Positions 28,110-46,116 of a DNA stretch of 64,000 nucleotides are shown here, one piece after another. The position numbers and the translations under genes were made by a program. The notes below the pieces were generated by a model. That model had not been told where the DNA came from. It did not search any database and worked only from the letters and a program-made list of their open reading frames with translations. Origin of the DNA: Granulicella sp. (GTDB lineage Bacteria > Acidobacteriota > Terriglobia > Terriglobales > Acidobacteriaceae); contig DAIDKF010000011.1 in the NCBI GenBank assembly GCA_027450185.1, positions 1-64,000 of the forward strand, given 5' to 3'. How positions within the stretch are numbered: the first letter of the stretch is position 1; the number at the start of each line of letters is the position of its first letter.

Positions 28110-29039
28110 CTACGCATCCTGTAATTGCGATACGAGCCGCACCGCATAGGAGATGGTGCTCTCGCCGATAGACAAGGCTCGCACTTCAGGTTGTGCCTCT
28201 CGCGCGAGTTCACGCAACACGTGGCCCGATGGCATCTCAAAAAATAAACGACACCCTAGTTCTTCGAGAACGGTTGTGGCGTCGAACCAGCGAACGCCAT
28301 ACGCAATATTGCTTGCCAGATCTTCAGCAATAGCCTCAGGGCTGCGCAATGCTCTCGCGGTCACATTGCCCACATAGACCGTTGCAGGCCGGTGGATGGT
28401 CATGGTTCGCAACATCGCTCGTAGCGAGGCCGCCACAGGCTCCAGAAGAGGACAGTGTGACGGCACAGATACATGCAGGCGTTCGGCCTTGCGAGCACCG
28501 ATCTTTCGAGCAGCCTCAAGCACCTTCGCCATCCCCGCGTTGGAGCCTGCGATCACAATCTGCCGGGGAGCGTTGATGTTCCCGACATATACAGGGATCT
28601 CCTCTGTGTGCGTATCGCGAACCAAATCTGCAACCTGTTGCTCGGTAAGTCCAATGATCGATGAAAGGCCGTACCCATCGGGATAGAGTTCGACCATCAT
28701 CTCGGCACGATGCTGTACGAGTCGCACTGCATCTGAAAGTTCTATAACCCCGCTCTGGACGCCGGCGGCGAAGGCGCCCACCGATAGCCCCGCAACTGCT
28801 TCAGCTTCTATCCCCTCTGCGATGAGGGCACGGGCAGTAGCTACGCCGGCAGACAAAAGCGCCAACTGAACCGAGACCGTTGACTCCAGCGCGGCAGCCG
28901 AGTCGAGATCCTGCACATGATGACCAAGCACCTCGCTCACCTCCTCCAGGGTTTGCCGGACGGCGGAGTGGTTCGGCAGTGTGTGCAGCATGCCTGGAAT
29001 CTGTGAGCCTTGACCGGGAAACAGAAACGCTATGCCCAT
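28110..29039 (-). CDS. mdcH: Malonate decarboxylase subunit epsilon (malonyl-CoA:ACP transacylase type)
   Basis: MGIAFLFPGQGSQIPGM...VAGLSVGAFAAGVQSGVI (acyltransferase GxSxG variant); position in the mdc operon. Confidence 0.93.
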   Translation of the reverse strand: MGIAFLFPGQGSQIPGMLHTLPNHSAVRQTLEEVSEVLGHHVQDLDSAAALESTVSVQLALLSAGVATARALIAEGIEAEAVAGLSVGAFAAGVQSGVIELSDAVRLVQHRAEMMVELYPDGYGLSSIIGLTEQQVADLVRDTHTEEIPVYVGNINAPRQIVIAGSNAGMAKVLEAARKIGARKAERLHVSVPSHCPLLEPVAASLRAMLRTMTIHRPATVYVGNVTARALRSPEAIAEDLASNIAYGVRWFDATTVLEELGCRLFFEMPSGHVLRELAREAQPEVRALSIGESTISYAVRLVSQLQDA

Positions 29040-29777
29040 CTAATTTCCCGCTCTCTCAAAGCTGTTTGCGACGTTCAGCATATCGGCTTGCTCGTGCCAC
29101 GGATCGCTCCCGAGCACAGGTCCATTCGGCGTGCGCAGAAGAATCTCCTTGCGGTCTTCTCGAGCGTACTCCTTCATGGAGAAGCCGCACTCGGGAGTCT
29201 CGACACGAATATCGACGATCGCGGGAAGATTCTTCGCTTGCGCGCAACGAAACTGTGCTTCTTCAATTGTTATAGGCTTTGCTGCGCGGATGACGATATC
29301 GAGATCGCTCTCGGCGTTCGCCACGCGACTGCCTGTCGCAAGCTCAAAGCCAACGCTGCCTCCCGGCCCCCAGGGGCGATCAAAATCCCGCCAGAGAGTT
29401 TTTAATATCTGTAGGGACTGAAGCGCTGGGACCTCTCCTACTCTCGAAGGATCTGCGCTAACTTCTAACAACTGAGATGGTGCAATCACGTGGAGGAGCG
29501 CCTGCCGGGAACAGGAGGTAGCCCATCGCTGGCTTCGCTCATATCCACGGATTCCGATCGGAAGACATGTTTCTCTTCGTAAGTCCCGGCGAACTACCGC
29601 AAAGGATACTTGGCGCACGCACTCTTCTGCCCAGCGCGGTACCGCGTCGCCTCGGGCCGTGGCTTCATCGAGAAGGCATTCCGGGTTGACCTTCAACAGA
29701 TCATGCGTTTGAACAGCGTGATCCTTATACGTAAACATGCGGGTTCCTAGTGAAGGTAGGTAAGGACAATGATCCAT
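29040..29777 (-). CDS. mdcG: Malonate decarboxylase holo-ACP synthase (phosphoribosyl-dephospho-CoA transferase)
   Basis: WRDFDRPWGPGGSVGFELATGSRVANAESDLDIVIRA (nucleotidyltransferase-like DLD motif); operon position. Confidence 0.9.
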   Translation of the reverse strand: MDHCPYLPSLGTRMFTYKDHAVQTHDLLKVNPECLLDEATARGDAVPRWAEECVRQVSFAVVRRDLRRETCLPIGIRGYERSQRWATSCSRQALLHVIAPSQLLEVSADPSRVGEVPALQSLQILKTLWRDFDRPWGPGGSVGFELATGSRVANAESDLDIVIRAAKPITIEEAQFRCAQAKNLPAIVDIRVETPECGFSMKEYAREDRKEILLRTPNGPVLGSDPWHEQADMLNVANSFERAGN

Positions 29778-30694
29778 CCAGCCAAACTAAAGATCCCCAC
29801 CACATAACTCGCAATCAGACCGGAGCTCGCCACCGGCGGCGTAACATCAAAATGTTTGCCGAAAACAATTCCGAAGAAGCCGCATGGAATAGCCGCCATC
29901 AATACAACCGAGCGCGTCAGGTCTAGCGGTAATCCCAGCACCCGAGCTACTCCTAAACACAGTGCAGGCTGGAGAATATTCTTCACGAAGACCGCCCAGA
30001 TCACACCCCATGTCAATTCAAATCGCTGCGCCGACACAACCAGACCCGTAAGGAACAGCGCCGATCCTGCCGTTGCATTGGCGAAGAGGGTGAGACTACG
30101 ATCCAGATAACTAGGCAGATGCAGCCCCACGATGACAGTGAGGATGCCGAGCATCGGAGCCCAGAAGACAGGCTTCTTCAATGCCTTCCACATGGAGATG
30201 CGTACGCATGCTGCAGTCGAAAGAGCGCGGCCTTCAGCAGTTCCTCCCTCAAGGATTGCAAGCGTAATTGCGGTGATGGTGATGGCTCCGACGGCGATAC
30301 CAACCACCACGACGATGTTTTGCTGGGCCCCGTACATTGCTTCCAACAGAGGAAAGCCAACCGCCGCAATATTAGGGAAGGTCAGGGTCAACGCAAGAAC
30401 GGAACTGTCTCGTGCGGAATCCTTACTCAGTATCCTCGAACTGAAGTAGGTGACGGCGTAGATAATGCCGTACACCACAACCAGCACGAGTGCAATCTTA
30501 CCCTGTCCCCACAGCAGTTGATGCGGTGTTCTAGCGATGGTGGCGAACAATGCGCACGGTACAGCAAAACTCATGACGAAGATGATTAAGGTCTTGACGT
30601 TTTTGTTGTCGACGTACTTGCGGAGACCTGCTACGTAGCCGGCCAGGAGACCAATGAAAACAGGGATGAGTGCATTCGCCAAAATTTTAATCAT
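29747..30694 (-). CDS. mdcF: AEC-family transporter, probable malonate transporter
   Basis: About 10 TM segments, MIKILANALIPVFIGLLAGYVAGLRKYVDNKNVKTLIIFVMSFAVPCALF; between mdcE and mdcG. Confidence 0.9.
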   Translation of the reverse strand: MIKILANALIPVFIGLLAGYVAGLRKYVDNKNVKTLIIFVMSFAVPCALFATIARTPHQLLWGQGKIALVLVVVYGIIYAVTYFSSRILSKDSARDSSVLALTLTFPNIAAVGFPLLEAMYGAQQNIVVVVGIAVGAITITAITLAILEGGTAEGRALSTAACVRISMWKALKKPVFWAPMLGILTVIVGLHLPSYLDRSLTLFANATAGSALFLTGLVVSAQRFELTWGVIWAVFVKNILQPALCLGVARVLGLPLDLTRSVVLMAAIPCGFFGIVFGKHFDVTPPVASSGLIASYVVGIFSLAGWIIVLTYLH

Positions 30695-31527
30695 TGTTCA
30701 TGCCTTATCTCTGCCCACTGAGCTTCGAGCAGTCTGCGGGTTTGTATGGACGCCTTGCGCATGTCGAGCGCTTCGGATGAAGTCGTCCGGCTACGCAGGT
30801 CAACGGGGCTATTGCGAGCATCATGAATTGCCGCAATAAGTTCCTTCTGTACACCTTCAATTTCCGCAGGTGAAGGGTTTTCCGGATGTTCTACATGAAG
30901 TAGCTTGTAGAGCAGGCCAAGCTTCGCATAGTCGCGAATGTTGTAAGAGAGCGGCGCAATGGTCTTGCCTAACTCTTCAAGGCTCTCGACGGTGCGGCGC
31001 GTAATGCGGGCAGCCGCCGCTTTGTGCATCGCATGGATCATGACGCCGTCATCATCGAAAGCCAGCAGCCGATTGGCCTGATAGCCGTGGGTAAGAAAGG
31101 CTCCGGAGAACGCGTGGCCGACGATCAGTGCGATGACGGGGTGGCCTGCAAGCCGCGCTGATCCGTAGGCGTCCGCCGCCGCCGCACCCGCAAGGAAGAT
31201 GCCCGCCGTCTCTTCGCGTCGTCCGTACGCCTGGCTTTTCACGTCCACAATTGCAACGATGGGACGCTTGAGCCTGTCCCTGTCTTCATGGATGACTTCG
31301 CGAACGCGGGTGGCCAGCGTGTAGGCCTCTTCCATGCCCACTTCGCCGTGTCTTGCACAAGGGAACCGTCCCTCCGGGTTAGGAACAACACATAGGAAAC
31401 GTGCGTTGTCTTCACCCAGTGGCGCATCGATGGTCAGCACGGAAGCAGGGTCCCCGCCGAGTGGCGCGGATTGTCCGGTGAGGGCCTTCAACCACACGGT
31501 CCCTCGAATACCCTTATATTCACTCAT
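30691..31527 (-). CDS. mdcE: Malonate decarboxylase gamma subunit
   Basis: MSEYKGIRGTVWLKALTG...PVIALIVGHAFSGAFLTHGYQANRLLAFDDDGVMIHAMHKAAAARITRRTVESLEEL. Confidence 0.93.
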   Translation of the reverse strand: MSEYKGIRGTVWLKALTGQSAPLGGDPASVLTIDAPLGEDNARFLCVVPNPEGRFPCARHGEVGMEEAYTLATRVREVIHEDRDRLKRPIVAIVDVKSQAYGRREETAGIFLAGAAAADAYGSARLAGHPVIALIVGHAFSGAFLTHGYQANRLLAFDDDGVMIHAMHKAAAARITRRTVESLEELGKTIAPLSYNIRDYAKLGLLYKLLHVEHPENPSPAEIEGVQKELIAAIHDARNSPVDLRSRTTSSEALDMRKASIQTRRLLEAQWAEIRHEQ

Positions 31528-32399
31528 TGATTGACCTCCGGTGCAGCGCCAGCCTTCCATGCGGCTCGCAGTTCTTTGGGGTCCCACTGACGGGATGGGT
31601 CGAGAGCTGCGATGCGGCTGCGATACAGCGCAACCTCGGAACTGCGGTGCACAGCAGGAACGCCCTTTGCAATGAAGCGTTGAACGGCCTCGACCATCTG
31701 CTGCGCATCATCTTCGACGAGAGCATCGGCCAGTCCCATCGCGAATCGCTGCTCGCCTCCGTGGATCGCCCAGATGAGCGCTCGATCGCTCGAATCGAAC
31801 TCATCCACGCCCGACGTCTGCTCGATCACCTCCGGCCCATTCATGCCGAGACGAGCTTCACGCGTCATCACCACGTAGCTCGCAAGACCGGCTGCCAGGG
31901 ACATGCCGCCGAAACATCCTACCGTTCCGGCAATGATGCAGATCACCGGAACATGTCGGCGCAGCACTAGAATCGAAGCCATGATCTCTGCAATGGAAGC
32001 CAATCCAAGATTCGCTTCCTGAAGCCGCACCCCGCCGGTTTCCAGAAGCATGACGGCATTTGTCCGGATTCCCTTCTCGTTATCTGCGCAGGCCAGGTCA
32101 AGCGCAGCCGCTAATTTCTCGCCCGAAACCTCGCCCATGCTCCCGCCCTGGAATGCGCCTTCCAGCGCGATCACCACCGTAGACTGTCCCGAGATCTTGC
32201 CCTTCATCACGACGCAGCCGTCGTCGGCTTGTGGCGTCACTCCCTGCATCGCCAGCCAGGGCGATTCCATTCTGTCGAAGGGGCCTGCCAATTCGCGCGA
32301 TGTGCCCGCATCAAAGAGAACCTCCGCTCGTTCCCGCGCGTTCAGTTCGATAAAGCTTTGCCGATTGATGAACTTCGTATCGTTCCGTTGCTCGCTCAT
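31524..32399 (-). CDS. mdcD: Malonate decarboxylase beta subunit
   Basis: QSFIELNARERAEVLFDAGTSRELAGPFDRMESPWL...LLETGGVRLQEANLGLASIAEIMA (carboxyltransferase fold). Confidence 0.93.
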   Translation of the reverse strand: MSEQRNDTKFINRQSFIELNARERAEVLFDAGTSRELAGPFDRMESPWLAMQGVTPQADDGCVVMKGKISGQSTVVIALEGAFQGGSMGEVSGEKLAAALDLACADNEKGIRTNAVMLLETGGVRLQEANLGLASIAEIMASILVLRRHVPVICIIAGTVGCFGGMSLAAGLASYVVMTREARLGMNGPEVIEQTSGVDEFDSSDRALIWAIHGGEQRFAMGLADALVEDDAQQMVEAVQRFIAKGVPAVHRSSEVALYRSRIAALDPSRQWDPKELRAAWKAGAAPEVNQ

Positions 32400-32689
32400 C
32401 GCTGGCTCACCTCCACTGCCTGCTGTAGCCTCAACAGGACACTCCCGGGCGTCGCTCCGGCATCGTGTATCTGGATGCGGACAGCGCCCTGATAGCTTGC
32501 AAAAAAGCGGTCCAGTACTGCCTTCCATGTGTTCCTGAAACCATCGACGCTCGTCAGGATGGAAACATGCGCGCTGTCTCCGTCCAGCGGTTCCAGAAGC
32601 ACTTCCAGATCACCGGAACCCACAACCCCGACATGGGCTTTCTTCAGCACCGCGTGCGTCGCCGGGTAGTCAAATTCAATTCGTTCCAT
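32396..32689 (-). CDS. mdcC: Malonate decarboxylase acyl carrier protein (delta subunit)
   Basis: MERIEFDYPATHAVLKKAHVGVVGSGDLEVLLEPLDGDSAHVSILTSVDGFRNTWKAVLDRFFASY; GSGD motif at the expected prosthetic-group serine. Confidence 0.93.
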   Translation of the reverse strand: MERIEFDYPATHAVLKKAHVGVVGSGDLEVLLEPLDGDSAHVSILTSVDGFRNTWKAVLDRFFASYQGAVRIQIHDAGATPGSVLLRLQQAVEVSQR

Positions 32690-33608
32690 CTGCTTCCTCC
32701 AACCAGCTTCGGTCCTCTTGCACTTCGTTCTGCCTGCGTTCGACCGCATCCAGAAACAGGGTTGCTGCGAGCAGGTCCGCGCTTCCTCCTGGAGAGACTC
32801 CGAGGTTCAGAACTTCGCCGTCAAGCTGCATCAGCCGCTGCTTCCCATACGGGGAGCCACAACCTCCCGCTGCGATGACCTTGTACGCTCCGGATCTCAC
32901 GGCCTCGAGTGCGGCGCTGTTCCTGCGATAGAGCACGCACGTGTCCTCCAAACGAGACATGATGCTGAGCAATGCGTCGATGCGCGCCACCGGCTCCGTA
33001 GCGCCACTTGAACGTTTCGCTCGCAGAGCAGGCAGTCCAACCCGGACAACATGAGGGAAGCCTGCAAGCGCTTCGCCCCTTGCGCCTTGAACACCGTACC
33101 TCTCCGCTACAACGTGGCCGTGAGTTACGAGTTGAAGCGTTGCGCTATCAGGAAACATTGCGATGCTTCTCGCCGTTTCCGCAATCACCGCCGCGGTCGT
33201 GTCCGGGCCCGTCATGGAAGCCGCAGAGACAAGCAACCCCAGAGCCCAGATCGCTCCCTTATGAGAGTTGCTGCCTCCGGTCGCCTTGTACATGGCGCGT
33301 TCCGCATCGCGCCCAATGGCGGCCAGACGTTCCCGCAGGTGTTGGCTCGCATACGCACCTGAAGCGATGAGGGCCATCTGATAAAAATACGGCTCGATCG
33401 CCAGCGCGGATCGCTTCATCATGGAGAGCGACAGATCCTTGTGCGTTCCTGCGCCGCGACGGTCGACGAGGCCCGGTTTGGGGGTCAGTTCTGCCTCTGC
33501 AACCAGCGCCTGCATGCACAGACGAGCCAGCCAGACAGCCTCTCCGTCTGCTTCGCATCGTGCCGAGTCCCTTGCCGTACCGCAGTTGGATAGGAGATCG
33601 AATCTCAT
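32676..33608 (-). CDS. mdcB: Triphosphoribosyl-dephospho-CoA synthase
   Basis: LTPKPGLVDRRGAGTHKDLSLSMMKRSALAIEPYF...GGSNSHKGAIWALGLL...LGVSPGGSADLLAATLFLD (CitG/MdcB family). Confidence 0.93.
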   Translation of the reverse strand: MRFDLLSNCGTARDSARCEADGEAVWLARLCMQALVAEAELTPKPGLVDRRGAGTHKDLSLSMMKRSALAIEPYFYQMALIASGAYASQHLRERLAAIGRDAERAMYKATGGSNSHKGAIWALGLLVSAASMTGPDTTAAVIAETARSIAMFPDSATLQLVTHGHVVAERYGVQGARGEALAGFPHVVRVGLPALRAKRSSGATEPVARIDALLSIMSRLEDTCVLYRRNSAALEAVRSGAYKVIAAGGCGSPYGKQRLMQLDGEVLNLGVSPGGSADLLAATLFLDAVERRQNEVQEDRSWLEEADGTN

Positions 33609-35266
33609 TACCACCCCCGGAACTTTGCGGGTGGGTTGTATAGGCCGCCGGACCATGCGACCAGATCTTCCATGCTCCGCGCCGCAAGCAGAGATCGTTT
33701 CGCTTCCATTCGGTGGACGCCGATGTCTTCGGGGTAAGCCACGACTCCCTTCTTGCGAAGCGCCGCCGTCTCAGATGCAACCGCCTTCAGACCAACAGGG
33801 CTGACTCCGGCGACTGCTGCGAGTGCACGACGACGCTCTTCACGTCCCTCAGCTTTATACAGGTAGGCGATCCCCTCTTCCGTTACGACATGGCTGACAT
33901 CGTCGCCATAGATCATCACCGGCGCAATCTGCATGCCTGCCTTCTTCCCTACCTGAACCGCGTCGAGTGTTTCAACAAAGGCAGGAACACCACCGCTCTG
34001 GAACGTTTCGACGGTTTGCACCACAACCTTGCGGCCGCGGACAATCGCTCCCGCGTCGGTCGCCAGATCCAGCCATGCATGAGAACTATGCCGGCGCCCA
34101 TGCGGATCGTGCCCCATGTTGGGCGCTCCACCAAACCCGGTGAGGCGCCCACTGGTAACGGTCGAAGAGTTTGCGTCTGAATCCATCTGCAGCGTCGAAC
34201 CGATGAACGCATCGACAGCATATTGTCCCGCAAGCTGGCAGAGCACTCGATTCGAACGCAGACTACCATCGTGCCCCGTAAAGAACACATCCGGGCGGGC
34301 AGCAATATAGTCCGTCATGCCCACCTCGCTGCCAAAGCAGTGAATACTCTTCACCCAGCCGCTTTCGATAGCAGGGATCATCGTCGGATGGGGATTGAGC
34401 GTCCAGTGCTCGCAGATCTTTCCGCGTAGTCCGAGCGATTCGCCATAGGTCGGCAGTAGCAGTTCGATCGCAGCCGTATCGAACCCAATGCCGTGATTCA
34501 GAGAGTGGATCTGATGCCGTTCGTAGATGCCCCGGATCACCATCATTCCAACCAGTATCTGCAGGTCATTGATGTGTCGGGGGTCACGCGTAAACAATGG
34601 CTCGACGGCATAGGGACGATCCGCTTCGACGACGACATCGACCCACGACGCCGGAATATCGACGCGTGGAACCTTATCCACAATCTCGTTGACCTGCACA
34701 ATCACAATGCCGTCGTGGAAGGCCGCAGCCTCGACAATGACAGGTGTGTCTTCAGTGTTCGGCCCGGTGTAGAGATTGCCTTGTGCATCCGCCTGTTCCG
34801 CGCATACCAGGACGACATTTGGAACCAGATCGACCAGCAGCCGCGCATACAACTCAACGTATGTGTGGATCGCTCCAATCTCCAAAATGCCATCTTCAAG
34901 AAGCTGCGAGACCCGCAGGCTCTGCGGCCCCGCGTAGGCGAAATCGACCTTCTTCGCAATCCCCAGTTCAAACAATGTGAGGTGCTCTGCGCGGCTGATG
35001 CTGGAGATGATCAGGTGCAGATCGTGCAGTTTTTTTACGTCGACCTTCACCAATGCACGGGAGAGAAAGTCAGCCTGCTTTTGATTGTCCCCCTCCAGTA
35101 CAAGTCGATCTCCGGAAACGATGAGACACTCCATCGCTTCGATGATCTTTGCGCGCGGCAGGATCGGGCCGTTCATCCAGGGTTGAATCTGTTGCATGCG
35201 TCGCCGTTTTTCATCGCGTCGCGTCGTCCACGATCGCTGTAGCGGCTCTAGCGGTTGCTGTGCCAT
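33608..35266 (-). CDS. mdcA: Malonate decarboxylase alpha subunit (ACP transferase)
   Basis: KIIEAMECLIVSGDRLVLEGDNQKQADFLSRALVKVD...YAVDAFIGSTLQMDSDANSSTVTSGRLTGFGGAPNMGHDPHGRRH; start taken at MAQQPLEPL. Confidence 0.93.
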   Translation of the reverse strand: MAQQPLEPLQRSWTTRRDEKRRRMQQIQPWMNGPILPRAKIIEAMECLIVSGDRLVLEGDNQKQADFLSRALVKVDVKKLHDLHLIISSISRAEHLTLFELGIAKKVDFAYAGPQSLRVSQLLEDGILEIGAIHTYVELYARLLVDLVPNVVLVCAEQADAQGNLYTGPNTEDTPVIVEAAAFHDGIVIVQVNEIVDKVPRVDIPASWVDVVVEADRPYAVEPLFTRDPRHINDLQILVGMMVIRGIYERHQIHSLNHGIGFDTAAIELLLPTYGESLGLRGKICEHWTLNPHPTMIPAIESGWVKSIHCFGSEVGMTDYIAARPDVFFTGHDGSLRSNRVLCQLAGQYAVDAFIGSTLQMDSDANSSTVTSGRLTGFGGAPNMGHDPHGRRHSSHAWLDLATDAGAIVRGRKVVVQTVETFQSGGVPAFVETLDAVQVGKKAGMQIAPVMIYGDDVSHVVTEEGIAYLYKAEGREERRRALAAVAGVSPVGLKAVASETAALRKKGVVAYPEDIGVHRMEAKRSLLAARSMEDLVAWSGGLYNPPAKFRGW

Positions 35267-35324
35267 CCGGGGTGCTCCTGTTCCAACGCTCCAATTAAGC
35301 GCTCCCTGATATCGATTAGGGAAG

Positions 35325-35364
35325 TTGTATTTTCGTGAGCCTGTGATAAATAATGCAAATACAA
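35325..35364. promoter_or_regulatory. Candidate LysR (MdcR) operator in the mdcA/mdcR divergent promoter region
   Basis: Perfect 8-bp inverted repeat TTGTATTT (35325-35332) / AAATACAA (35357-35364) directly upstream of the LysR start. Confidence 0.5.
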
Positions 35365-35371
35365 TAAAAGC

Positions 35372-36262
35372 ATGGAACTTCGCCAGATTCGTTCGTTTCT
35401 CTCCGTCGCAGAAACCCTGAGCTTTGTCCACTCCGCACAAATCATTCACCTGAGCCAGCCCGCGCTCAGTCTTCAAATCAAGGCGCTGGAAGAGGAGTTG
35501 GGCGTCAGGCTTCTGGAACGAAACAGGCGAAGGACGGTGCTTACCGCCGCTGGTATTGCCTTTCGTGAGGATGTCTCCGGCGTTCTGGTCGGCTTGGACC
35601 ATGCCGTCCACAGGGCGAAACTGGCAGCCGTTGGCAGGTTGGGCTTGCTGCGTATCGGTTTTATTTCAACCGCCGGCAATGAGATCGTGCCAGGGATTAT
35701 TCGTGAGTTCCGAGAGCTGCATCCGCACGTTGAGTTCTCTCTTCGAAACATCCTCACGATGGATCAGATTCAGATGCTGAATGATGGAACCATCGACATC
35801 GGATTCCTTCGGCTACCGATCAGCGAGCACTCGGAACTAGATGCCGTGACCGTTCATAGGGAGAGCTTTGTACTTGTGGTGCCCGCATCTCACAAATTGG
35901 CAAAGAAGCGTCCTGTCAGATTGAGCGCGCTGGCCAATCAGGACTTTGTCATGTATGAGCGGAAACATGCTCCCGGTTTCCACGATTTGATCATGGGCAT
36001 GCTTCGCAACGCCGGTATCGTCCCCAGGGTCTATCAGACCGCAGGTGAGATGCCAACCCTGATTGCACTGGTCGAATCCGGTGTCGGAATTGCTATCCTC
36101 CCTGCATCTGCTGTCCGAAACAGGAAGACCCGTGTCGTGGTATGCGAAATCGCGGATAATATTCCGAAGTCAGAGATCTGTCTCGCCATCCGCAAGTCGA
36201 ACATCTCAGTTATTGTTGAGAATTTTAGAGAGTTCGCATTGAAGAGACTCCGCCCTGGTTGA
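35372..36262 (+). CDS. mdcR: LysR-family transcriptional regulator, probable mdc operon activator
   Basis: MELRQIRSFLSVAETLSFVHSAQIIHLSQPALSLQIKALEEELGVRLLERNRR (LysR HTH); divergent from mdcA. Confidence 0.88.
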   Translation: MELRQIRSFLSVAETLSFVHSAQIIHLSQPALSLQIKALEEELGVRLLERNRRRTVLTAAGIAFREDVSGVLVGLDHAVHRAKLAAVGRLGLLRIGFISTAGNEIVPGIIREFRELHPHVEFSLRNILTMDQIQMLNDGTIDIGFLRLPISEHSELDAVTVHRESFVLVVPASHKLAKKRPVRLSALANQDFVMYERKHAPGFHDLIMGMLRNAGIVPRVYQTAGEMPTLIALVESGVGIAILPASAVRNRKTRVVVCEIADNIPKSEICLAIRKSNISVIVENFREFALKRLRPG

Positions 36263-36404: not shown

Positions 36405-36441
36405 AACGAGCTATCATTCTGGAATGGAATGATAGCTCGTT
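36405..36441. terminator. Perfect 15-bp hairpin between convergent genes (probable bidirectional terminator)
   Basis: AACGAGCTATCATTC - TGGAATG - GAATGATAGCTCGTT. Confidence 0.65.
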
Positions 36442-36481: not shown

Positions 36482-37681
36482 CTACTGAATCTTTTTCAGC
36501 TCTTCCTGCACCGTTGCTGCATCGAGGGGTATGTATTTTCCATCTTTTTCGACTAACTCCTGCCCCTGTTTGCTTAAGATAAACCGCAGAAACTCACGAA
36601 TCTTTGGATCCACCTTCTGACCGGGTGGTACGTCAAACCAAAAGGACTGGCCCGTCCATAGCGGATAGGAATGGTTGAAGATCGTATCCATGGAGTACTG
36701 AACATAGGGTCCGTCCGCAGTTTTTGCTACATCTAGAACCTTGACGTTTTCTGGGAATTTTTGATGAAATCGCACATATCCGATCCCGTTAGGATCCGCG
36801 CTGACGTGGTCCACAATCTGATCCGCTTCGAGATATGTCTTGCCGTTGGGTCTGTCATAGTTTCCGAAACCTAGCAGATTGCCATTCCACTTATCGGAGT
36901 CTTGCAGGACGAGATCGGAAAATTCCAAAGCAGTGGAGTACCGCAGGCTATATCCATACGTATTGATCGGCTTATTTATCCAGTCTCCCCCAATCCCCAG
37001 CTGGCCCCATGTGCGGATATTGAATTCAGGTCCGCGTGCAAACTCTGGATGCCACGTAGTACGCACCCATCCGCCGGCGCGCTCTGAACCGAAGATGCCA
37101 TCCAACTGCGCCAGGTTCACTTTTGTAAGTGGATTTGCTTTATTCACCACAATAGCGAAGTTATTCTGCCAACCGACAACGTCATAGGACCCGTTGACGA
37201 CGAGTACGCCCACAGGCGCGCGGCCTTTCACTCGTTGAAACGAAAGATAGTCGTAAAAATCCGGCATGTGGGTAATTCCGACGTCGGCGAGATCAAAAGT
37301 AATGCATGCTGTCGCAGTTGCGGACGTAAGAAGGTTGAACTCGATCTTAATGCCTGGCTGATACTTCGCAAAAGCATCTTTCCACCAACCCCCAAGGGGC
37401 GAGTCGCCGATATAATTATTGCCGCACAGACGTAGATTGCCGGTAGGGTGTCCCTCAGGTACGTAGTCCGGCAGGCTACTTAGATCGAACGTACGACTGT
37501 AGGCCGGATTCTTGGCGATCGCCGCCATACGAATCCTGCGCTCGATTGCCGAACCTTCAGGGTATTTCTTTGATTCCGCATTCGGTTGATACTTGTCATC
37601 CATCTGCGCGTGGGACACGCCGGCGCTGAACAGTCCTACAAGCAACATTACGACCGAGACCACTTTGTATCTGTGTTGCAT
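36482..37681 (-). CDS. PstS-like periplasmic substrate-binding protein (orphan)
   Basis: Signal peptide MQHRYKVVSVVMLLVGLFSAGVSHAQ; NIRTWGQLGIGGDWINKPINTYGY, KIREFLRFILSKQGQELVEKDGKYIPL as in PstS-like PBPs. Confidence 0.82.
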   Translation of the reverse strand: MQHRYKVVSVVMLLVGLFSAGVSHAQMDDKYQPNAESKKYPEGSAIERRIRMAAIAKNPAYSRTFDLSSLPDYVPEGHPTGNLRLCGNNYIGDSPLGGWWKDAFAKYQPGIKIEFNLLTSATATACITFDLADVGITHMPDFYDYLSFQRVKGRAPVGVLVVNGSYDVVGWQNNFAIVVNKANPLTKVNLAQLDGIFGSERAGGWVRTTWHPEFARGPEFNIRTWGQLGIGGDWINKPINTYGYSLRYSTALEFSDLVLQDSDKWNGNLLGFGNYDRPNGKTYLEADQIVDHVSADPNGIGYVRFHQKFPENVKVLDVAKTADGPYVQYSMDTIFNHSYPLWTGQSFWFDVPPGQKVDPKIREFLRFILSKQGQELVEKDGKYIPLDAATVQEELKKIQ

Positions 37682-37824
37682 AGTTCTCCCTTCTTTCTTC
37701 GAGAATTGTCCTGTCGTGGATAGCTCAATCCGCGACAGCCATAGATGGGCAAAGTGATTTGCAGACGGCTTCAAGCAGCATAGACGTAGCCCTCTGCACA
37801 GCAAACAGCTCCCATGGTCTTGGT

Positions 37825-40800
37825 TCAGAAGATGATCTTCAGTCCGAACTGGATCTGACGTTCGGTCGTGGAGGTAGCAGTCAACAGTGGGAGGTCGGAC
37901 GCTGCACCGGCAACCGCAGGATTCGTTGACCCCTTGTAGATGACGGAGTTGGCTCGGGATGGAACCTGAAAATTCGGATGGTTAAGTGCGTTGAATGCCT
38001 CCGCGCGGAACTCGACCCGTCCCAATGGTCCGAACTTCGGGACCGCCGTATTCTTGACAAAAGAGACGTCCATCGACGTAATGCCAGGGCCGTAAATTGA
38101 ATTCCGAGCTACATTTCCGATGCGCGGGTAATATACTCCGTTCGGCCCTGCAATGGGCATAGGGTACGCGAAGCATTGACGTTTCAGAAAATTCACTGAC
38201 TGCGTGGTACGGCCTCGTTGCCTTAGGTCGGTGGGGTTTCCCTCGCATCCTGGGCCATAAATTCGGTCCGGTAGGGAGAAAGTATTTCCGCTCGAAAGAC
38301 CAAGAGGATCTCCGGAGATTAGTGGTGTAAAAGGAAGGCCAGTCGCTACACGAAGAATGCCGCCCAATTGATATCCATCGGTTATAGAGCGAATCAACGC
38401 CCCATGGCTTGTAATACCCGAGAGAGTATAGAGCCCATTGAACACGAAATTCTGCGTCACATTGAAGTCCGATGGCCCCTTGAATCGAGCCGCATAGAAC
38501 GGAAACGGTGCGATGATCGAGTTCACGAAGTTTGTACCCGCTGTCGATGACGAAGACTCGTCAAGCGATTTCGACCAGGTATATGAGGCTCCAATTCGGT
38601 AGTTCCGTCCATTTCCGCGCACAGCAACATTGAGGGCGTTGTATGTGGTCGACTCATTGAAGAGCGTGGTGTCTTCCACGCCAACAGATGGATTGAGTTT
38701 GGTGCCGCTGGTAATGTATTTAGTCTTACCGCTCACGGTGGTGGGCACCAGCGCGGGCCAGATCAGGTTTTGGATCGTTGACCCAGGTCCAGTGGGTTCG
38801 ACAATATTTCCATCGTTACTTTTTAACGGTTGACGGATACCATGAGCGCCCGTATATCCGATTTCAAGGCTGACACCACTTGCCAATTGCTGTTCAATAT
38901 TAAGGAGAAACTGCTGAACATAAGGACGGCTAAAGTCGCGCTGGACGTAGTTGACCTTGTTGGTTGGCTTCGCAATGGCTAGGTCATACGCCTGGGTGGA
39001 ACACACTGTTCCGGTGCAGTGCGGTATGTAATTACTGAATGATCCAAAGCTATATTCTGGCGCTGGAGCTAGGTCCGCCGTACTTCCGAAGGGAGCCACT
39101 GTAACAGTGTCCACCGTAAAGTAGTTGGTAAGTGGCAGCGTGTCATAGATGCCATAGGCTGCTCGAAATGAAGTCTTTCCGGTTCCGAAAGGATCCCAGG
39201 CCACACCCACGCGAGGCGCGAAATTCGTCAACGACGGGTTGTTAAAAAGGCTGTTAACCACGCTCACTGTAGGAGATGTAGGAGTTAGGAGCACTCCGAG
39301 ATGGCCGTATTTCTCGCCCACCGAAGAGATAGGTTCATAACGCACGCCTGCCTTCACTGTCAGGTTGGGGCGCGGATGGTATGTGTCCATGAGATAACCT
39401 CCATAGACGCTTTGCCGGAGATAGATTGGAATACTTAATCCGGGAATATTGGATACAAAACTGGTTGGTGCGTTTGTAATGAAGGATAGGTAGGAGGCAA
39501 AAGAGTAGCTTCCATTCGTTGAAGTACCAAGATCATTCGACTGGATTCGTTCATATGAAAATCCGGCTTGCAGGGAGTGCGCACCTTTGGTCAGGTAGAA
39601 GTCGTCCCCTGCTTGGTAGCTGTGATAGTGAAAGGAGTAAACCCCTTCCGCATTGACACCACCTGCAATTGTGCTTAGTCCACCAATAAGTACTTCGCCA
39701 ACCGTAGCACCTGGTGCAAAACCCAGCGAAGTCTCCGCTGAAATTGGTCGTATAGCTGTGTTAGATGCTGGAGCGAGGGCGAACGTGTAAGCATATCCCG
39801 CGTGAGCGACATTCAGCGCTCGGGACGAGAAGACATGCTGTTCCGAAACCGAGTAAACCCGTCGTGTCACGTCGAGTCCTTCCTCAACGAGGTCGAAGTT
39901 ATCCGGTTGGGCATCCGTCGAAGCGTCATTGAGAGCGGTCGCGTGCATCGTGTCCTCGGGCGAAAACGTGTAATCCGCTCGCCCAGTGTAGAGATTTTCC
40001 TGGGCAATTGCCGCAGACCTCACGGTCCAGGTCCCTGTATCGCCAGAGATCCCGGCATTGGCCTGAGGGAACACCGCGAGGTACGGAATTACGTTGGGAT
40101 CGACCGTGTACTGTTCGAGACCGACGCTATTCGGTGGTGCGGTGGGGCCGCCGGCGAACGCGAGGCACTCCTTGTTGGAAGCCGTCGCCGTCTGCGTGCA
40201 CTGCAGCAAACCAGCGTCAGCATTGGGAGATGGTACGGTATTGATCGTTGTCGAAGTAAGGTTTTGACGCAGACCCTCATAGTTGAAGAAAAAGAAAGCT
40301 TTATTCTTGCGTATCGGACCACCGATCGCACCTCCAAACTGATTTCGCTTAAACGGAGCTGACGTTCCGGAGGGAGTGAAATAGTTGTAGGGATCCAAAG
40401 CGCTGTTCCGGATGAACTCATAGGCAGAGCCATGAAACTTGTTAGTTCCTTGGCGGGTAACTGCTGAGATAACGCCGCCGGAGGTTCGACCGTAATCGGC
40501 CGTCGCGTCGGACGTAACTACCGTGAACTCCTGTATGGCGTCTACACCCAGGCTGAGGCCAAGCGCGCCGCCAGGGCCAGCGCCAGAGTAGTCATTCGTC
40601 GTTATGCCATCCAGCCTATAGTTATTCTGCGGCGGCCGTGTACCTCCGATCGATATTTGCGTTCCGATGCCGCGGTTGGAACGGGAGTTATCGCCCGCGG
40701 ATATGCTGAGTTGGTTGTCAACCGTATGCACGTTAGGTTCGAGGATGCTGAGCGATGTCCAATCGCGGCCATTGAGCGGTAGCTCGCGAAGCGTTTTCCC

Positions 40801-41304
40801 ATCCACCGTCTGATTGAGCTGCGTCGTGCCAAGGTCAACGATGGGAGTAGAAGAAGTAACAGTGACGACTTGGCTAACTGCGCTTCCTACCGGCATGACC
40901 ATCTTGACGACCGTAACATGGCTGACTTCGACCGTTGCCTCTGTGTTCGTGGTAGCGAAGCCCTTTGCCTTGAAGGTTAGCTTGTAGGTTCCGGGGTCTA
41001 AGTTGGGTTGATCGAATAGACCTGCCGAACTCGTGATGAGCGTTTGTCCGATGCTCGTCCCTCGATTAATAATTTGCACGGCAACACCAGGAATGACTGC
41101 GCCACTGCTATCAGTAACCGTCCCTGTGATGCTTCCTCCAGACATCTGCGCCAGCGCTGGAATAGACAGGCCGCATAGAACAACAAGGGACGCAACGATC
41201 CAGGTCCAAATGCGCCTGGGTCGAGCATTGATACGCGCTTGCGTACTCGCGCGGACGGTCGCCGCGGTTGGCACGCCACTTCGGGTTATTAGCGGTGTAG
41301 TCAT
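37825..41304 (-). CDS. TonB-dependent receptor / Oar-like outer-membrane protein with N-terminal carboxypeptidase-regulatory-like domain
   Basis: 1159 aa; GGSITGTVTDSSGAVIPGVAVQIINRGT, LPLNGRDWTSL, YNYFTPSGTSAPFKRNQFGGAIGGPIRKNKAFFFFNYEGLRQ, C-terminal FRAEAFNALNHPNFQVP...QIQFGLKIIF. Confidence 0.93.
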   Translation of the reverse strand: MTTPLITRSGVPTAATVRASTQARINARPRRIWTWIVASLVVLCGLSIPALAQMSGGSITGTVTDSSGAVIPGVAVQIINRGTSIGQTLITSSAGLFDQPNLDPGTYKLTFKAKGFATTNTEATVEVSHVTVVKMVMPVGSAVSQVVTVTSSTPIVDLGTTQLNQTVDGKTLRELPLNGRDWTSLSILEPNVHTVDNQLSISAGDNSRSNRGIGTQISIGGTRPPQNNYRLDGITTNDYSGAGPGGALGLSLGVDAIQEFTVVTSDATADYGRTSGGVISAVTRQGTNKFHGSAYEFIRNSALDPYNYFTPSGTSAPFKRNQFGGAIGGPIRKNKAFFFFNYEGLRQNLTSTTINTVPSPNADAGLLQCTQTATASNKECLAFAGGPTAPPNSVGLEQYTVDPNVIPYLAVFPQANAGISGDTGTWTVRSAAIAQENLYTGRADYTFSPEDTMHATALNDASTDAQPDNFDLVEEGLDVTRRVYSVSEQHVFSSRALNVAHAGYAYTFALAPASNTAIRPISAETSLGFAPGATVGEVLIGGLSTIAGGVNAEGVYSFHYHSYQAGDDFYLTKGAHSLQAGFSYERIQSNDLGTSTNGSYSFASYLSFITNAPTSFVSNIPGLSIPIYLRQSVYGGYLMDTYHPRPNLTVKAGVRYEPISSVGEKYGHLGVLLTPTSPTVSVVNSLFNNPSLTNFAPRVGVAWDPFGTGKTSFRAAYGIYDTLPLTNYFTVDTVTVAPFGSTADLAPAPEYSFGSFSNYIPHCTGTVCSTQAYDLAIAKPTNKVNYVQRDFSRPYVQQFLLNIEQQLASGVSLEIGYTGAHGIRQPLKSNDGNIVEPTGPGSTIQNLIWPALVPTTVSGKTKYITSGTKLNPSVGVEDTTLFNESTTYNALNVAVRGNGRNYRIGASYTWSKSLDESSSSTAGTNFVNSIIAPFPFYAARFKGPSDFNVTQNFVFNGLYTLSGITSHGALIRSITDGYQLGGILRVATGLPFTPLISGDPLGLSSGNTFSLPDRIYGPGCEGNPTDLRQRGRTTQSVNFLKRQCFAYPMPIAGPNGVYYPRIGNVARNSIYGPGITSMDVSFVKNTAVPKFGPLGRVEFRAEAFNALNHPNFQVPSRANSVIYKGSTNPAVAGAASDLPLLTATSTTERQIQFGLKIIF

Positions 41305-42143
41305 TCATTGGGCTCCATAAGTTTTGCTAAATAGTTCCGAACGGATAGTTCCTTCGAGCAACGGGTCATGCTGCCGATTGTTCCACTCAATATCAATTCG
41401 CTTGATCGTGCACCTGATGGCGCTCTTAGGCCGTTCAGGCTTTGTTGCCACGCGGTTGGTTAGAGTACGCAAGTGGTCAGCTCTTTGCAGACATCCGAAT
41501 CGTTGATCGAAATACTCAGAGCGCTGCATAAGAGCAGAAGCGCACGGAGCAGCCTCACAAGACACGACGGCAATTCGAACTCGCGCCTGCTTCTCGCGTG
41601 GTTTCAAATCGGACTTCCTTGCGCATTTCGCAATGTTCATCGTGGTCCTTACTGTGGCGAATCGAAACGCTAAGTTCCGGGAATGAAGTTCGCCTGAAGC
41701 ATAAGTGAAAACCCGTTCATCGAACCAGTCACCCTGTTGCAGCGAATGCGCATAGCGAAATACGGAGAGTTTCATCGCAGGTTCAGCCGCGGCTCGTCCG
41801 GCCGCTCAAGTCTTGTAACGCGCCAGATGCATGCCTGCGACAGCGCACAAGACCTGATTCCAATCCCGAACCGGATACGCGAGAAGATGCTCGACACAAA
41901 TGCCGTCTTGTTGGCCCCTCCCTACGTCGTTGGCTCGCAGCAGTCCGCGCTCATCTGCAGGCAGCAGCACTCAGGTCAGTCACCCCACCGCATTGGCAAG
42001 ACCATAAATGGATTTTCACTTGGTTTTTGTTCAACCTTCATCGTGCAACGTAAGCATGGTTTGCCATCGATAACCGGTGCATACTTAATGCGCAAACGAA
42101 ATGGTTCGACTTCTCTTCGTCACATGAAAGGCAATCATAGCGG

Positions 42144-42671
42144 ATGATGAACATAAAAAACACAGTCGTATTGTTACTCGTAGTCTCGAGTTGCGCGCCG
42201 GCGATAAAGGCGCAGGACACCCGCCAATCGGCAATCGCCAGCATGCATGCGGTTGATCCATCGGCCATGGATCCTGGGTTCACCCATGCAGCGCCTATGG
42301 CCCAAAAGCTCGTAGACGAAGCGTTGGCCTCTCACCCAGCGGTCCTTCTAATTGCCATTCACGGGGGTGCGCCCAAGTACGACATTATCGCTTCGAACTT
42401 TGGCAGGATCGGCAAACTTGGAGATGAAGACGATCTCCGCTGCATCCGGACCGGAAAGAACAACCTGGAAGTCGACGCCACCGGCAAGCACTTCGAAGCC
42501 GAAGTCCCCTTAAGAGATAAGTCAGGTAACATCGTCGGCGCACTCGGTGTTGTCTTCAACTACAAACCGGGCGATGACAAATTGGCCAAGGAACGTATAG
42601 CCATGGCGATTTCAAATCATATGTCCGCGCAGATTTCTTCTGCTAGAAGTCTCTTGGGTCCTGCAATCTAA
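42144..42671 (+). CDS. Small secreted Cache/PDC-like domain protein
   Basis: Signal peptide, then AQKLVDEALASHPAVLLIAIHGGAPKYDIIASNFGRIGKLGDEDDLRCIRTGKN...FEAEVPLRDKSGNIVGALGVVFNYKPGDD; the last segment resembles a Cache/PAS-like beta-sheet. Confidence 0.6.
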   Translation: MMNIKNTVVLLLVVSSCAPAIKAQDTRQSAIASMHAVDPSAMDPGFTHAAPMAQKLVDEALASHPAVLLIAIHGGAPKYDIIASNFGRIGKLGDEDDLRCIRTGKNNLEVDATGKHFEAEVPLRDKSGNIVGALGVVFNYKPGDDKLAKERIAMAISNHMSAQISSARSLLGPAI

Positions 42672-42745
42672 GACAAGGGTAGTGCTTTCTTTGATCAACC
42701 GAGGTCCACGTTGACATATAACCGTTCTCCACGAAAGAAGTTTTA

Positions 42746-43822
42746 ATGAAAACACCTTATCGCTGTTTACTAGGGTCCGCGTTGCTTGTCGTCATAGCTG
42801 TTGCTGGCGCCCAGGAACCTGCGCCCGCTCCAACTGCGCCTACCCAACCGACATCCTTGGGCACCGCGCAATCAAACGCCGCATTGACACTCGTAGGACG
42901 AATCCCTGTCCCCCGGATGACAGGCACCTGGGACCACCTTACTCTCGACCCAGCGACCGACCGGCTCTTCGCTTCGGCCCAGGACGACAATCAGGTCCGG
43001 GTCTTCGATCTCCATGCGCGCAAGCAACTCGATACGATGACCTCTGGATTCAATCGCCCTCAAGGCCTTTATTATGTCGCGGGCGACGATACGCTGGCAG
43101 TCTCGAATGGCAAGGACGGAACCTTACGAGCATTTAACGGCAAGACCTATGAGCCCATCAGGATTGTTCAGCTCTCCCTCGGTGCTGACATGATGGATAT
43201 GGATCCGACGACCAGGTATCTCTACGTCGATCACGGAGGAACGGACTCCAACCGTGGGCCAGGCGGCCTGGCCATCATCAACACGAAAGACTGGAGCAAG
43301 GTTGGAGAGATTTCAACCGAGTTGCGGCCTGCTGCGCTTGCCATGGAAAAGAGCGGTGACCGATTGTACCTGCTCATCCCTGGTCTTACGCAGGTTGCCG
43401 TGATCGATCGCTCGACGAATGCGATCTACGCACGCTTTCAGCTCAAGGTTCCAGCGCAGCCCATCGCTCTTGCACTGGATGAGCGTCGGCACCGGCTCTT
43501 CGTTGATATGCGTCGGCCCTCCTCTTTCAATATTCTCGACTCGAACACCGGCAAGCCGATCGCCACACTGGATACCATCGATGGCGTCGAAAGCATGTAC
43601 TACGACGCAAAGCTACGCCGAATCTACATGACAGCTCTGGATGGCTACGTGCAAGTCATTCAGCAGATCGATGCCGATCATTACAAGACCATTGCCCGCT
43701 TCTTTACTGGCCACCACGCTGGCACGTCACAGTGGGTTCCGAACATGAATCTTTTCTGTGTGGCCGTTCCTCCCGTCGATGGTCAGGCTGCGGAGATATG
43801 GCTGTTCCAGCCTAAACATTAG
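42746..43822 (+). CDS. YncE-like secreted beta-propeller protein
   Basis: Signal peptide; LTLDPATDRLFASAQDDNQVRVFDLHARKQLDTM, GLYYVAGDDTLAVSNGKDGTLRAFNGKTYE, repeated YVTN-like blades. Confidence 0.82.
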   Translation: MKTPYRCLLGSALLVVIAVAGAQEPAPAPTAPTQPTSLGTAQSNAALTLVGRIPVPRMTGTWDHLTLDPATDRLFASAQDDNQVRVFDLHARKQLDTMTSGFNRPQGLYYVAGDDTLAVSNGKDGTLRAFNGKTYEPIRIVQLSLGADMMDMDPTTRYLYVDHGGTDSNRGPGGLAIINTKDWSKVGEISTELRPAALAMEKSGDRLYLLIPGLTQVAVIDRSTNAIYARFQLKVPAQPIALALDERRHRLFVDMRRPSSFNILDSNTGKPIATLDTIDGVESMYYDAKLRRIYMTALDGYVQVIQQIDADHYKTIARFFTGHHAGTSQWVPNMNLFCVAVPPVDGQAAEIWLFQPKH

Positions 43823-43841
43823 TTGCTTGAGGACTCGAAGC

Positions 43842-44891
43842 ATGAAACGCTTTACCTCGTTTACGCTTGTCTTGACCTTGGCTACATCTTGCGGGCACAG
43901 CTTGCCGGCGCTTGCTCAACAGTCGATCACGCCGCAAACGATCCCAGCATATACTCCGCATCCCATCGAGCCCGGGGTGATTCGGAGTTGGGGCCATGTA
44001 TTCGTTCGGTCTGTTATGACAAGCTGGGAGCAGGCTTTTGCAGCCTATCATCCTGGGATTACTTTTTCCGACAACCTCGTCTCCAGTGCGGCAGCTACAG
44101 GTGCGCTCTTCACCAACACCGCAGACCTTGGTGTCGTGGGCCGCGAGATCCGGCCAATGGAAGTGGCTGGCTACTCCCGCGTCATGAAGCACAAGCCGTT
44201 TCCCTACGAGGTCATGACCGGCAGTTGGGCCAACGCGGATAAGAGCGTCGCCCTGGGCATTTTTGTAGCCCAGGATAATCCAATCAAGCGCCTCACCTTC
44301 ACTCAGCTTGACGCCATCTTCGGCGCAGAGCATCTGCGTGGTGCTCCGGCAAACATACGCACCTGGGGCCAACTAGGACTTACCGGCAGATGGGCTTCCC
44401 GTCCGATACATGTATACGGTGGAGAGCTCGATGCCGCGCCTGCTTTTTTCTTCTCGCAGACCGTCATGAAGGGATCTCTCCTCTGGAATGAAAACCTTCA
44501 TCACTTCGACGATCTCGACCGGCCTGACAAGACAACCTACGTAGCCCAGCAGCGGATCGTCGACGCGCTGGCGAAGGACCCCGATGGGATCGCTCTTTCC
44601 GGAACCGGCTTTGTAAGCCCTGGAACGAAATTGATCGCCATAGCCGCGCGTGATGCAGGCCCTTTCATTCTGCCGACACCATCCAGCAACGAAGACCGAA
44701 CCTACCCGCTCTCCCGTTCCGTTTGGATCTTCACAAACCAATCGCCGACCAATCCTCTCGATCTGCGAACTCGTGAGTTCCTTCGATTCATCTTCAGCCG
44801 TGAAGGCCAGGAGCTTGTTCGCAAAGATGGAGAGTACGTCCCGCTGACGCCTGCGAAAGATCTTGAGCAACTTGAGAAGCTGGGCCAATGA
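43842..44891 (+). CDS. PstS-like periplasmic substrate-binding protein (orphan)
   Basis: MKRFTSFTLVLTLATSCGHSLPALAQQ signal peptide; NIRTWGQLGLTGRWASRPIHVYGG, LRTREFLRFIFSREGQELVRKDGEYVPL. Confidence 0.82.
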   Translation: MKRFTSFTLVLTLATSCGHSLPALAQQSITPQTIPAYTPHPIEPGVIRSWGHVFVRSVMTSWEQAFAAYHPGITFSDNLVSSAAATGALFTNTADLGVVGREIRPMEVAGYSRVMKHKPFPYEVMTGSWANADKSVALGIFVAQDNPIKRLTFTQLDAIFGAEHLRGAPANIRTWGQLGLTGRWASRPIHVYGGELDAAPAFFFSQTVMKGSLLWNENLHHFDDLDRPDKTTYVAQQRIVDALAKDPDGIALSGTGFVSPGTKLIAIAARDAGPFILPTPSSNEDRTYPLSRSVWIFTNQSPTNPLDLRTREFLRFIFSREGQELVRKDGEYVPLTPAKDLEQLEKLGQ

Positions 44892-44925
44892 ATCGATCTT
44901 AAAATCTCATCTCGGAGTCTGTCGT

Positions 44926-46116
44926 ATGTATCTCTTCCACTACGTAGCGCTCACCGCGCTCCTCATCGCGAGCCTTCCATCCTCGATTCGAGCACAGGCC
45001 TCTCAAGCGAAATCCGATGCAGAAGCCAGTGCGCTTCAGGCGGCACGCGCCAGGAGCGTTCTCCGCAAGGGTCACGAAGTCCACTACCCGCCTGACCGTT
45101 TCGATCTCAGTGACCTTCCCCACTACAAGCCGGAGGTGCAGGTCTCCGGCACGATTCGTCAGTGGGGATCTAACTATCTGACCGATTCGCCCTTGGCGAG
45201 TTACCTTGAAACTGCATTCCAGAAGTTTCAGCCCAACGTAAAGTTCTCTGACAATCTCCGAACCTCCGAGCACGCCATCTCGTCGCTCGTCTTCGGTGTT
45301 GCGGATGTCGGCATCATGGGTCGCCAGATTATGTGGGACGAGCGTCTCTCCTTCCAGCGCGAGTTCAATTACCAGCCAACGGGCATCATCGGGATGACCG
45401 GGTCCTATGATGTCTCCGGCTGGAATCCGCCAATCGGATTCTATGTCAACTCCAAAAATCCGCTCGCGCACCTCTCCATGGCACAGATCGACGGAATCTT
45501 CGGAGACGTGCGCACCGGTGCGTACGACGGCCTCATCTGGAACGAGGCGGCAGCCAGGGGCGCTGAGAAGAACATCCGCACCTGGGGCCAGCTCGGTCTC
45601 TCCGGTGAGTGGGCCGATAAGCCGATTCACGTGCTCGGCTACAACTTGGAGTTTCACTTTCCGCAGGAGATCGAGACGCGAGCATTCGGCGGTGTCACCA
45701 GCAAATTCAACGGCGGACTTCTGGAGTACTCTAACTCCACCAATGCGGATGGCACGTTGAAGATTGCCGGGCAGACCATGATCGAGGACGTCGCAAAGGA
45801 TCCATACGCCATCGCTTATGTGGCTGGAGGGGAACTCTGGAAGACGGCCGCTGTAAAGACCCTCGCCATCGGGTACGGAAGCAATGGACCTTTTGAAGAC
45901 CTCACAATGGACAACGTCCGCAATCGCACTTACCCGTTTTACGCCGATATCTTCTTCTGGATTAATCGCGATCCTAAGCAGCCGGTCGACCCGAAGCTCC
46001 GCGAATATCTCCGCTTTATCCTCTCCCGCGAAGGCCAGGAGCAGATTGTTCGTGACGGCAAATACCTCCCGCTAACCAAAACCGTCATCGAGCAAGAGCG
46101 AAAGAAGCTCGACTGA
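44926..46116 (+). CDS. PstS-like periplasmic substrate-binding protein (orphan)
   Basis: Signal peptide; TIRQWGSNYLTDSPLASYLETAFQKFQPNVKFSDN, NIRTWGQLGLSGEWADKPIHVLGY, KLREYLRFILSREGQEQIVRDGKYLPL. Confidence 0.82.
   Translation: MYLFHYVALTALLIASLPSSIRAQASQAKSDAEASALQAARARSVLRKGHEVHYPPDRFDLSDLPHYKPEVQVSGTIRQWGSNYLTDSPLASYLETAFQKFQPNVKFSDNLRTSEHAISSLVFGVADVGIMGRQIMWDERLSFQREFNYQPTGIIGMTGSYDVSGWNPPIGFYVNSKNPLAHLSMAQIDGIFGDVRTGAYDGLIWNEAAARGAEKNIRTWGQLGLSGEWADKPIHVLGYNLEFHFPQEIETRAFGGVTSKFNGGLLEYSNSTNADGTLKIAGQTMIEDVAKDPYAIAYVAGGELWKTAAVKTLAIGYGSNGPFEDLTMDNVRNRTYPFYADIFFWINRDPKQPVDPKLREYLRFILSREGQEQIVRDGKYLPLTKTVIEQERKKLD

Follow-up and report, generated by a model that had tools for sequence, protein, structure and literature searches.

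A conserved cluster of TonB receptor, PstS-like, YncE-like and small exported protein genes in Granulicella sp.: a possible mobile module for carboxylate capture and sensing

Six genes between positions 36482 and 46116 of a 64,000-nucleotide stretch of Granulicella sp. DNA (hereafter the window) were found to form a conserved module rather than an accidental grouping. The synteny check revealed that the same families, namely a TonB-dependent receptor, PstS-like binding proteins, a YncE-like beta-propeller and a small sensor-like protein, recur in relatives and across phyla, at 42 discovery loci and 15 further loci compared with 40 control regions. A sequence-only reading of the window had proposed an undescribed outer-membrane/periplasmic capture-and-sense module, and this conservation among relatives and in other phyla bears the proposal out in part. 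We consider the chances about even that this cluster represents one copy of a mobile module which captures and senses carboxylates in the cell envelope. A literature search on YncE/PstS/TonB combinations, orphan PstS and TonB-carboxylate systems, with subscription journals and preprints mostly outside its scope, returned no description, and the module has apparently not been described before.

Organisation of the cluster in the window

The coordinates and strands that the sequence-only reading had assigned to the six genes were confirmed from the open reading frames (Table 1). The plus-strand genes are separated by 74, 19 and 34 bp, an operon-like spacing, and the four of them likely constitute one operon; the receptor gene and the PstS-like gene downstream of it are a second unit on the minus strand. 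On inspection, the N-terminus of each of the six products has the look of a Sec signal peptide, in agreement with the earlier view that every product appears exported, and the predicted signal peptides end at or near A-x-A followed by Q. The receptor matched OMP_b-brl_4 (PF25183, 511 bits) and CarboxypepD_reg (PF13620, 63 bits) in Pfam, the combination of domain and barrel that marks an Oar-type TonB-dependent receptor, and its plug (PF07715) scored 21.1 bits, just under the cut-off for that family. None of PstC, PstA, PstB and PhoU was found in the interval 36482-46116, as had been claimed, and no pstCAB operon, named beforehand as a finding that would speak against the proposal, was seen near the cluster. 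The Rfam search of 28-50 kb, the divergent region included, detected no riboswitch or other RNA, and no promoter motif common to the window cluster and the second cluster described below was found. At the minus-strand end, the hairpin at 36405-36441 sits between the convergent LysR gene and the PstS-like gene at 36482.

Table 1. Features of the cluster and its immediate context (window coordinates)
Feature	Coordinates	Strand	Evidence
Malonate decarboxylase genes (context, outside the module)	28110..35611	-	
LysR-family regulator, divergent from the mdc genes (context)	35372..36262	+	
Perfect inverted repeat, 15 bp, loop 7 nt; terminator-like boundary	36405..36441		
PstS-like exported binding protein, subfamily 'B'	36482..37681	-	ORF, Pfam, tree, pocket alignment
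TonB-dependent Oar-type outer-membrane receptor (CarboxypepD_reg + OMP_b-brl_4)	37825..41304	-	ORF, Pfam
Divergent intergenic region, 839 bp, presumed promoters	41305..42143		
Small exported sensor-domain-like protein without named family; marker gene of the module	42144..42671	+	
YncE-like exported beta-propeller	42746..43822	+	Pfam beta-propeller similarity
PstS-like exported binding protein, subfamily 'I' (divergent)	43842..44891	+	
PstS-like exported binding protein, subfamily 'A'	44926..46116	+	

The window also encodes, at 46344-47339, a sugar-type orphan binding protein (Peripla_BP_4, 198 bits) with a lipoprotein-like TGC motif and no adjacent ABC genes, whose third-position GC of 0.84 is like that of the flank rather than that of the cluster.

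Recurrence, second cluster and distribution

The small-protein loci, 57 in total (42 discovery and 15 out-of-sample), were compared with 40 control regions, each 20 kb long and taken from five acidobacterial genomes in which the module is present. In this set, which consists mostly of draft or metagenome contigs, includes close relatives (several Rhodanobacter, L126/L127 and L128/L129) and has acidobacterial controls only, YncE was present at 36/42 discovery loci versus 4/40 controls (p=1e-12), PstS-like genes at 15/42 versus 0/40 (p=1e-5), and a two-component pair at 24/42 versus 4/40 (p=5e-6). The Oar receptor was present at 11 of the 20 Acidobacteriota discovery loci and in 5/40 controls (p=8e-4), and the enrichment of any TonB gene over all 42 loci was non-significant (p=0.08; 12/40 controls), TonB receptors being common in Acidobacteriota. 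The out-of-sample set, 15 of the new loci that a phylum-wide search gave, scored with profiles and thresholds unchanged, again showed enrichment of YncE (10/15, p=7e-5), the two-component pair (11/15, p=1e-5) and the Oar receptor (11/15, p=3e-5).

A PBP_like_2 profile search of the genome returned twelve matches, of which three lie in the window and the other nine in a stretch of about 20 kb on a second contig, C10; reading of this contig and a search with a window protein brought its PstS-like genes to ten. C10 also carries a small-protein homologue (61% identical), two YncE-like genes, two response-regulator/kinase systems and an MFS carrier. The regulators are thus a part of the system that is missing from the window copy. 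The module is split in this genome: the window has the receptor and the subfamilies A, B and I, and the two-component systems, the MFS carrier and most other subfamilies are on C10. The acidobacterial genome G360 carries the complete system within a single region of about 34 kb, with ten PstS-like genes (one of them a tandem double), the receptor, YncE, regulators, the small protein, a short-chain fatty-acid carrier and DctA. Three subfamilies (those with best matches to L010:4496, 5557 and 6525) follow one another in the same order there as on C10. A two-component pair is absent from the window cluster and present on C10, in G360 and nearby at 35/57 loci. The earlier statement that such a pair is missing holds for the window copy but not for the system, and the idea of a system free of signalling genes had to be given up, because two-component pairs recur. 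Upstream of the PstS cluster on C10 (L009:3453-6731), an exported protein with CxxCH heme-binding motifs is followed by a 773-aa probable outer-membrane protein, and the two may be a porin-cytochrome pair.

Matches to the small-protein marker were found in 13/120 same-family genomes; in the genome collection, 31 named loci matched, the taxa being Acidobacteriota, Rhodanobacter, Dyella, Paraburkholderia, a rhodospirillale, Steroidobacteraceae, Deltaproteobacteria-labelled MAGs and Eremiobacterota. The window PstS-like protein had matches in 5/120 same-family genomes, and both same-genus genomes searched lacked the small protein and the PstS-like protein. The Rhodanobacter and Dyella loci are without PstS-like genes, which makes the PstS set optional. 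The GC content of the cluster is 51-57%, compared with 60-65% in most of the flanks, and the low-GC stretch begins near 12 kb and extends beyond the cluster. Horizontal transfer is the simplest account of the patchy distribution, the cross-phylum subfamilies and the GC content. In 2-kb steps, most of 12000-46000 has a GC of 0.51-0.57 and the flanks 0.60-0.65; this stretch, which holds glycosyltransferase genes, a tRNA-Arg(CCG) at 18878-18954, the malonate operon and the cluster, is possibly a genomic island larger than the cluster itself.

PstS-like proteins, small protein and propeller

All three PstS-like proteins of the window scored above the Pfam cut-off of PBP_like_2 (PF12849; 27.6, 33.8 and 35.3 versus 27 bits) and missed the PstS-family cut-off of TIGR02136 (61.4, 84.1 and 72.6 versus 206.6 bits). 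The nearest solved structures are 4omb/4pqj, a phosphate-binding protein of P. aeruginosa, and the AlphaFold2 model of the protein at 44926 (mean pLDDT 94) gave 4omb as its best Foldseek match (E 5e-29). Mapping of the classical phosphate contacts by alignment of 46 PstS-like proteins revealed that the pocket loop Arg, the equivalent of E. coli R135, is absent in 46/46 and that the S-G-T motif is complete in few. The pocket loops vary among subfamilies and are conserved inside each, those of the window being GYNLEFHFP, GGELDAAPA and GYSLRYSTA; in subfamily A the loop reads GYNLxFHFPQEI. Canonical pstS near pstC was found elsewhere in the genomes of P. piptadeniae, Rhodospirillales TMPK1, two Rhodanobacter and Dyella; in the window's genome, which is 54% complete, the sole match to the PstC profile was far under the cut-off. 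A PHO-box consensus scan set true pst promoters apart weakly, so that its discrimination was poor. The loss of the pocket Arg and the scores below the PstS-family cut-off agree with the earlier view that these proteins are not ordinary phosphate receptors, and the same loss makes an inorganic oxyanion, which had been suggested as ligand, less likely. Annotations tend to label PstS-like genes as phosphate receptors, which are then taken as markers of phosphorus limitation, and such readings can mislead where a PstS-like set without the phosphate Arg travels with organic-acid genes.

Analysis of the tree of the 46 proteins showed that the subfamilies span phyla with high support and are common to Acidobacteriota, Burkholderiales and Eremiobacterota. 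The window protein at 44926 groups with betaproteobacterial array members (58-59% identity), and that at 36482 with P. piptadeniae and betaproteobacterial proteins (59% to L064:6209-7393 of P. piptadeniae). Several C10 proteins each pair with one P. piptadeniae protein, and the two clusters of the window's genome together contain counterparts of the nine-gene array of Paraburkholderia piptadeniae. One 805-aa protein (L122:16477-18894) contains two PstS-like domains in tandem.

The small protein of the window matched no Pfam family, and its homologue at L029 reached 21.3 bits against sCache_3_2 (PF17203), under the cut-off of 28.4. Its predicted structure (pLDDT 86) gave weak Foldseek matches (E about 1e-3) to CitA, GAF and IclR-type domains, and the citrate-binding residues of CitA were not evident. 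The label 'Cache-like' given to it earlier was a reading from sequence, on which the sub-threshold match of the homologue and the weak PAS/GAF/CitA fold match bear. The window propeller scored 39.4 bits against the YncE equivalog NF052280 (cut-off 400) and is 26% identical to E. coli YncE over 141 aa. Since the membership tests for PstS, YncE and sCache_3 all failed, the module was assigned to none of these families. Single-frame fusions of the small protein and YncE were found at 10 loci, with one to three small-protein domains joined to YncE at L041, L048, L049, L051, L053, L056, L058 (two genes) and L061, and the reverse order at L035 and L037. In addition, a MAG labelled Deltaproteobacteria encodes a PstS-like protein and a small-protein domain in one 551-aa frame (L065:1457-3112). 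These fusions physically link the small protein, YncE and PstS-like families.

Ligand class, working model and alternatives

Several organic-acid genes above curated cut-offs were identified next to the module, including TcuC tricarballylate symporters adjoining the small protein at L044 and L054, DctP at L060, DctA at L122 and L128, and an oxalate decarboxylase-type bicupin at L128; in G360, DctA sits within the PstS array. Pfam further recognised SCFA_trans, MmgE/PrpD and PEP_mutase/ICL-family proteins, and PrpB-like proteins were noted as well. Organic-acid carriers or enzymes make up most of the inner-membrane partners that were recognised. The gene order is regulator-kinase-TonB-small protein-SCFA carrier-small protein-YncE at L029 and L046, and YncE-TonB-small protein-TcuC at L054; at L115, MFS-PrpD-PrpB stands next to TonB-PstS-PstS-YncE. 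Organic-acid families picked post hoc occurred at 19/42 discovery loci versus 1/40 controls, and those of an HMM list fixed beforehand, which did not contain DctA, at 4/15 new loci versus 1/40 controls (p=0.017); in the majority of the 57 loci no organic-acid gene was recognised. From these neighbours we infer a carboxylate as the ligand class, which the sequence-only reading had guessed. It had pointed to the neighbouring malonate operon, which is indeed real, with mdcA, B, C, D, E and H over the NCBIfam cut-offs and an auxin-efflux/MdcF-type carrier at 29747-30694; however, malonate itself is only weakly indicated, and it is not put forward as the specific ligand, given that the adjacency was found at 1/42 loci and that the terminator-like hairpin lies between the two.

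On the preferred reading, the TonB-energised receptor would import a scarce carboxylate or metal-carboxylate complex into the periplasm, and the PstS-fold proteins, their pockets shifted from phosphate to several other ligands, would buffer and sort it. The small PAS/Cache-like protein and the YncE-like propeller, often fused, would form a hub in the periplasm, to which the ligand or the loaded PstS-like proteins bind and from which the state is relayed to a sensor kinase, and an OmpR-type two-component pair would tune expression. Entry into the cytoplasm would proceed through a separate secondary carrier at each locus (DctA, TcuC, MFS, short-chain fatty-acid carrier or TRAP) and without PstCAB. 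The kinases have a HAMP-HisKA-HATPase architecture, and no named ligand domain was found in their sensor regions. We put forward, tentatively, that a diversified set of up to about ten horizontally co-inherited PstS-fold proteins and a Cache-YncE hub, placed between a TonB receptor and secondary carriers (DctA, TcuC, MFS) plus a kinase, would make this a new envelope system for carboxylate uptake and sensing that has no ABC, TRAP or TTT permease dedicated to it. If the preferred reading is right, it would provide a first function for the unnamed small-protein family and the YncE-like propellers, and the role of expanded orphan binding-protein sets would become directly testable.

Among known systems, SusC/SusD-type systems combine a TonB receptor, binders and a dedicated regulator, whereas the module has PstS-like proteins, YncE and the small protein in place of SusD, and organic-acid instead of glycan neighbours. 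PstS (P. aeruginosa 4omb/4pqj; E. coli PstSCAB) shares the fold and the Pfam family PF12849, but in the module the pocket Arg and Ser-Gly-Thr are not kept as a set, PstCAB is lacking, and diversified sets stand in place of one receptor. The sCache_3 sensor domains of the CitA/DcuS type, which the small protein weakly resembles in fold and sequence, are part of a membrane kinase, whereas the small protein is free-standing or fused to YncE or PstS. The closest known TonB-YncE pairing is E. coli pqqU-yncE, in which the gene of a TonB receptor for the cofactor PQQ is divergent from that of an exported YncE propeller; however, that receptor is of another family, and the PstS-like set, the small protein and the two-component pair are missing there. 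PQQ uptake, considered by analogy, was rejected, as the propeller scored under the cut-offs of both YncE and PQQ_ABC and the neighbouring genes included no recognised PQQ enzyme. The nearest functional precedent is Bordetella BctC/BctE, in which the citrate-loaded binding protein activates a sensor kinase (PMC9602780). The TctC ('Bug') receptors of tripartite tricarboxylate transporters show expansions with unexplained redundancy (PMC9602780, PMC5812351). The module resembles these systems in its expanded extracytoplasmic binding proteins and, for BctC/BctE, in the signalling of a loaded protein to a kinase that is proposed here; however, TctC belongs to another binding-protein family, the window proteins matching PBP_like_2 alone in Pfam, and the module adds the TonB receptor, the YncE-like propeller and the small sensor-like protein, with no TctAB recognised.

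Other explanations were weighed against the same evidence. Metal or metallophore uptake or homeostasis, in which the receptor takes ferric-carboxylate or siderophore, the PstS-like proteins serve as receptors of metal chelates, iron is reduced by PepSY proteins and RND pumps export the chelator, would fit the TonB-siderophore family receptors above cut-off at L045 and L050, the presence of PepSY_TM reductases at 4/42 and RND genes at 8/42 loci versus 0/40 controls, and the PepSY and RND genes that adjoin the P. piptadeniae array too. We nevertheless regard it as unlikely, since the receptors in the window and most acidobacterial copies are of the Oar type and not siderophore receptors, no biosynthetic genes were recognised, and the carriers above cut-off are carboxylate carriers. 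The loss of the pocket Arg in all 46 proteins, the scores of 61-84 against 206.6 bits and the intact canonical pst operons elsewhere likewise render it improbable that extra PstS paralogues scavenge phosphate, phosphonate or phosphate esters and feed a true PstCAB encoded elsewhere, despite the PstS fold, the P. aeruginosa PstS as nearest solved structure and the few loci that have a phosphoesterase-family gene nearby.

RND operons within 10 kb at 8/42 loci, kinases without a named ligand domain and one sub-threshold CusS sensor match would suit envelope stress or efflux sensing, with the small protein and propeller monitoring damage or drugs, the two-component pair controlling RND, and the PstS-like proteins as accessory surface or structural components. 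This account appears quite improbable, because it leaves unexplained the TonB receptors, the diversified and conserved PstS pockets, and the carboxylate carriers in the same gene runs. As for ordinary acidobacterial gene clutter, that is, common TonB and PstS genes adjoining by chance, TonB receptors do occur in 12/40 controls and the module is missing from both same-genus genomes; the out-of-sample enrichment, the fusions, the cross-phylum subfamilies and the partly conserved gene order already contradict it, and its probability is close to negligible.

Some further neighbours were recorded. The RND efflux operons lie within 10 kb at L041, L043, L047, L059, L063, L067, L028 and L039 and in 0/40 controls. 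At L113:3709-6471, SsuA/NMT1-type ABC transporter genes adjoin the TonB receptor of the P. piptadeniae array and could be its inner-membrane partner. At L128:12039-16427 and at L129, two MmgE/PrpD-like proteins flank the oxalate decarboxylase-type bicupin beside the TonB/small protein/YncE module, a region that represents a possible organic-acid catabolic island.
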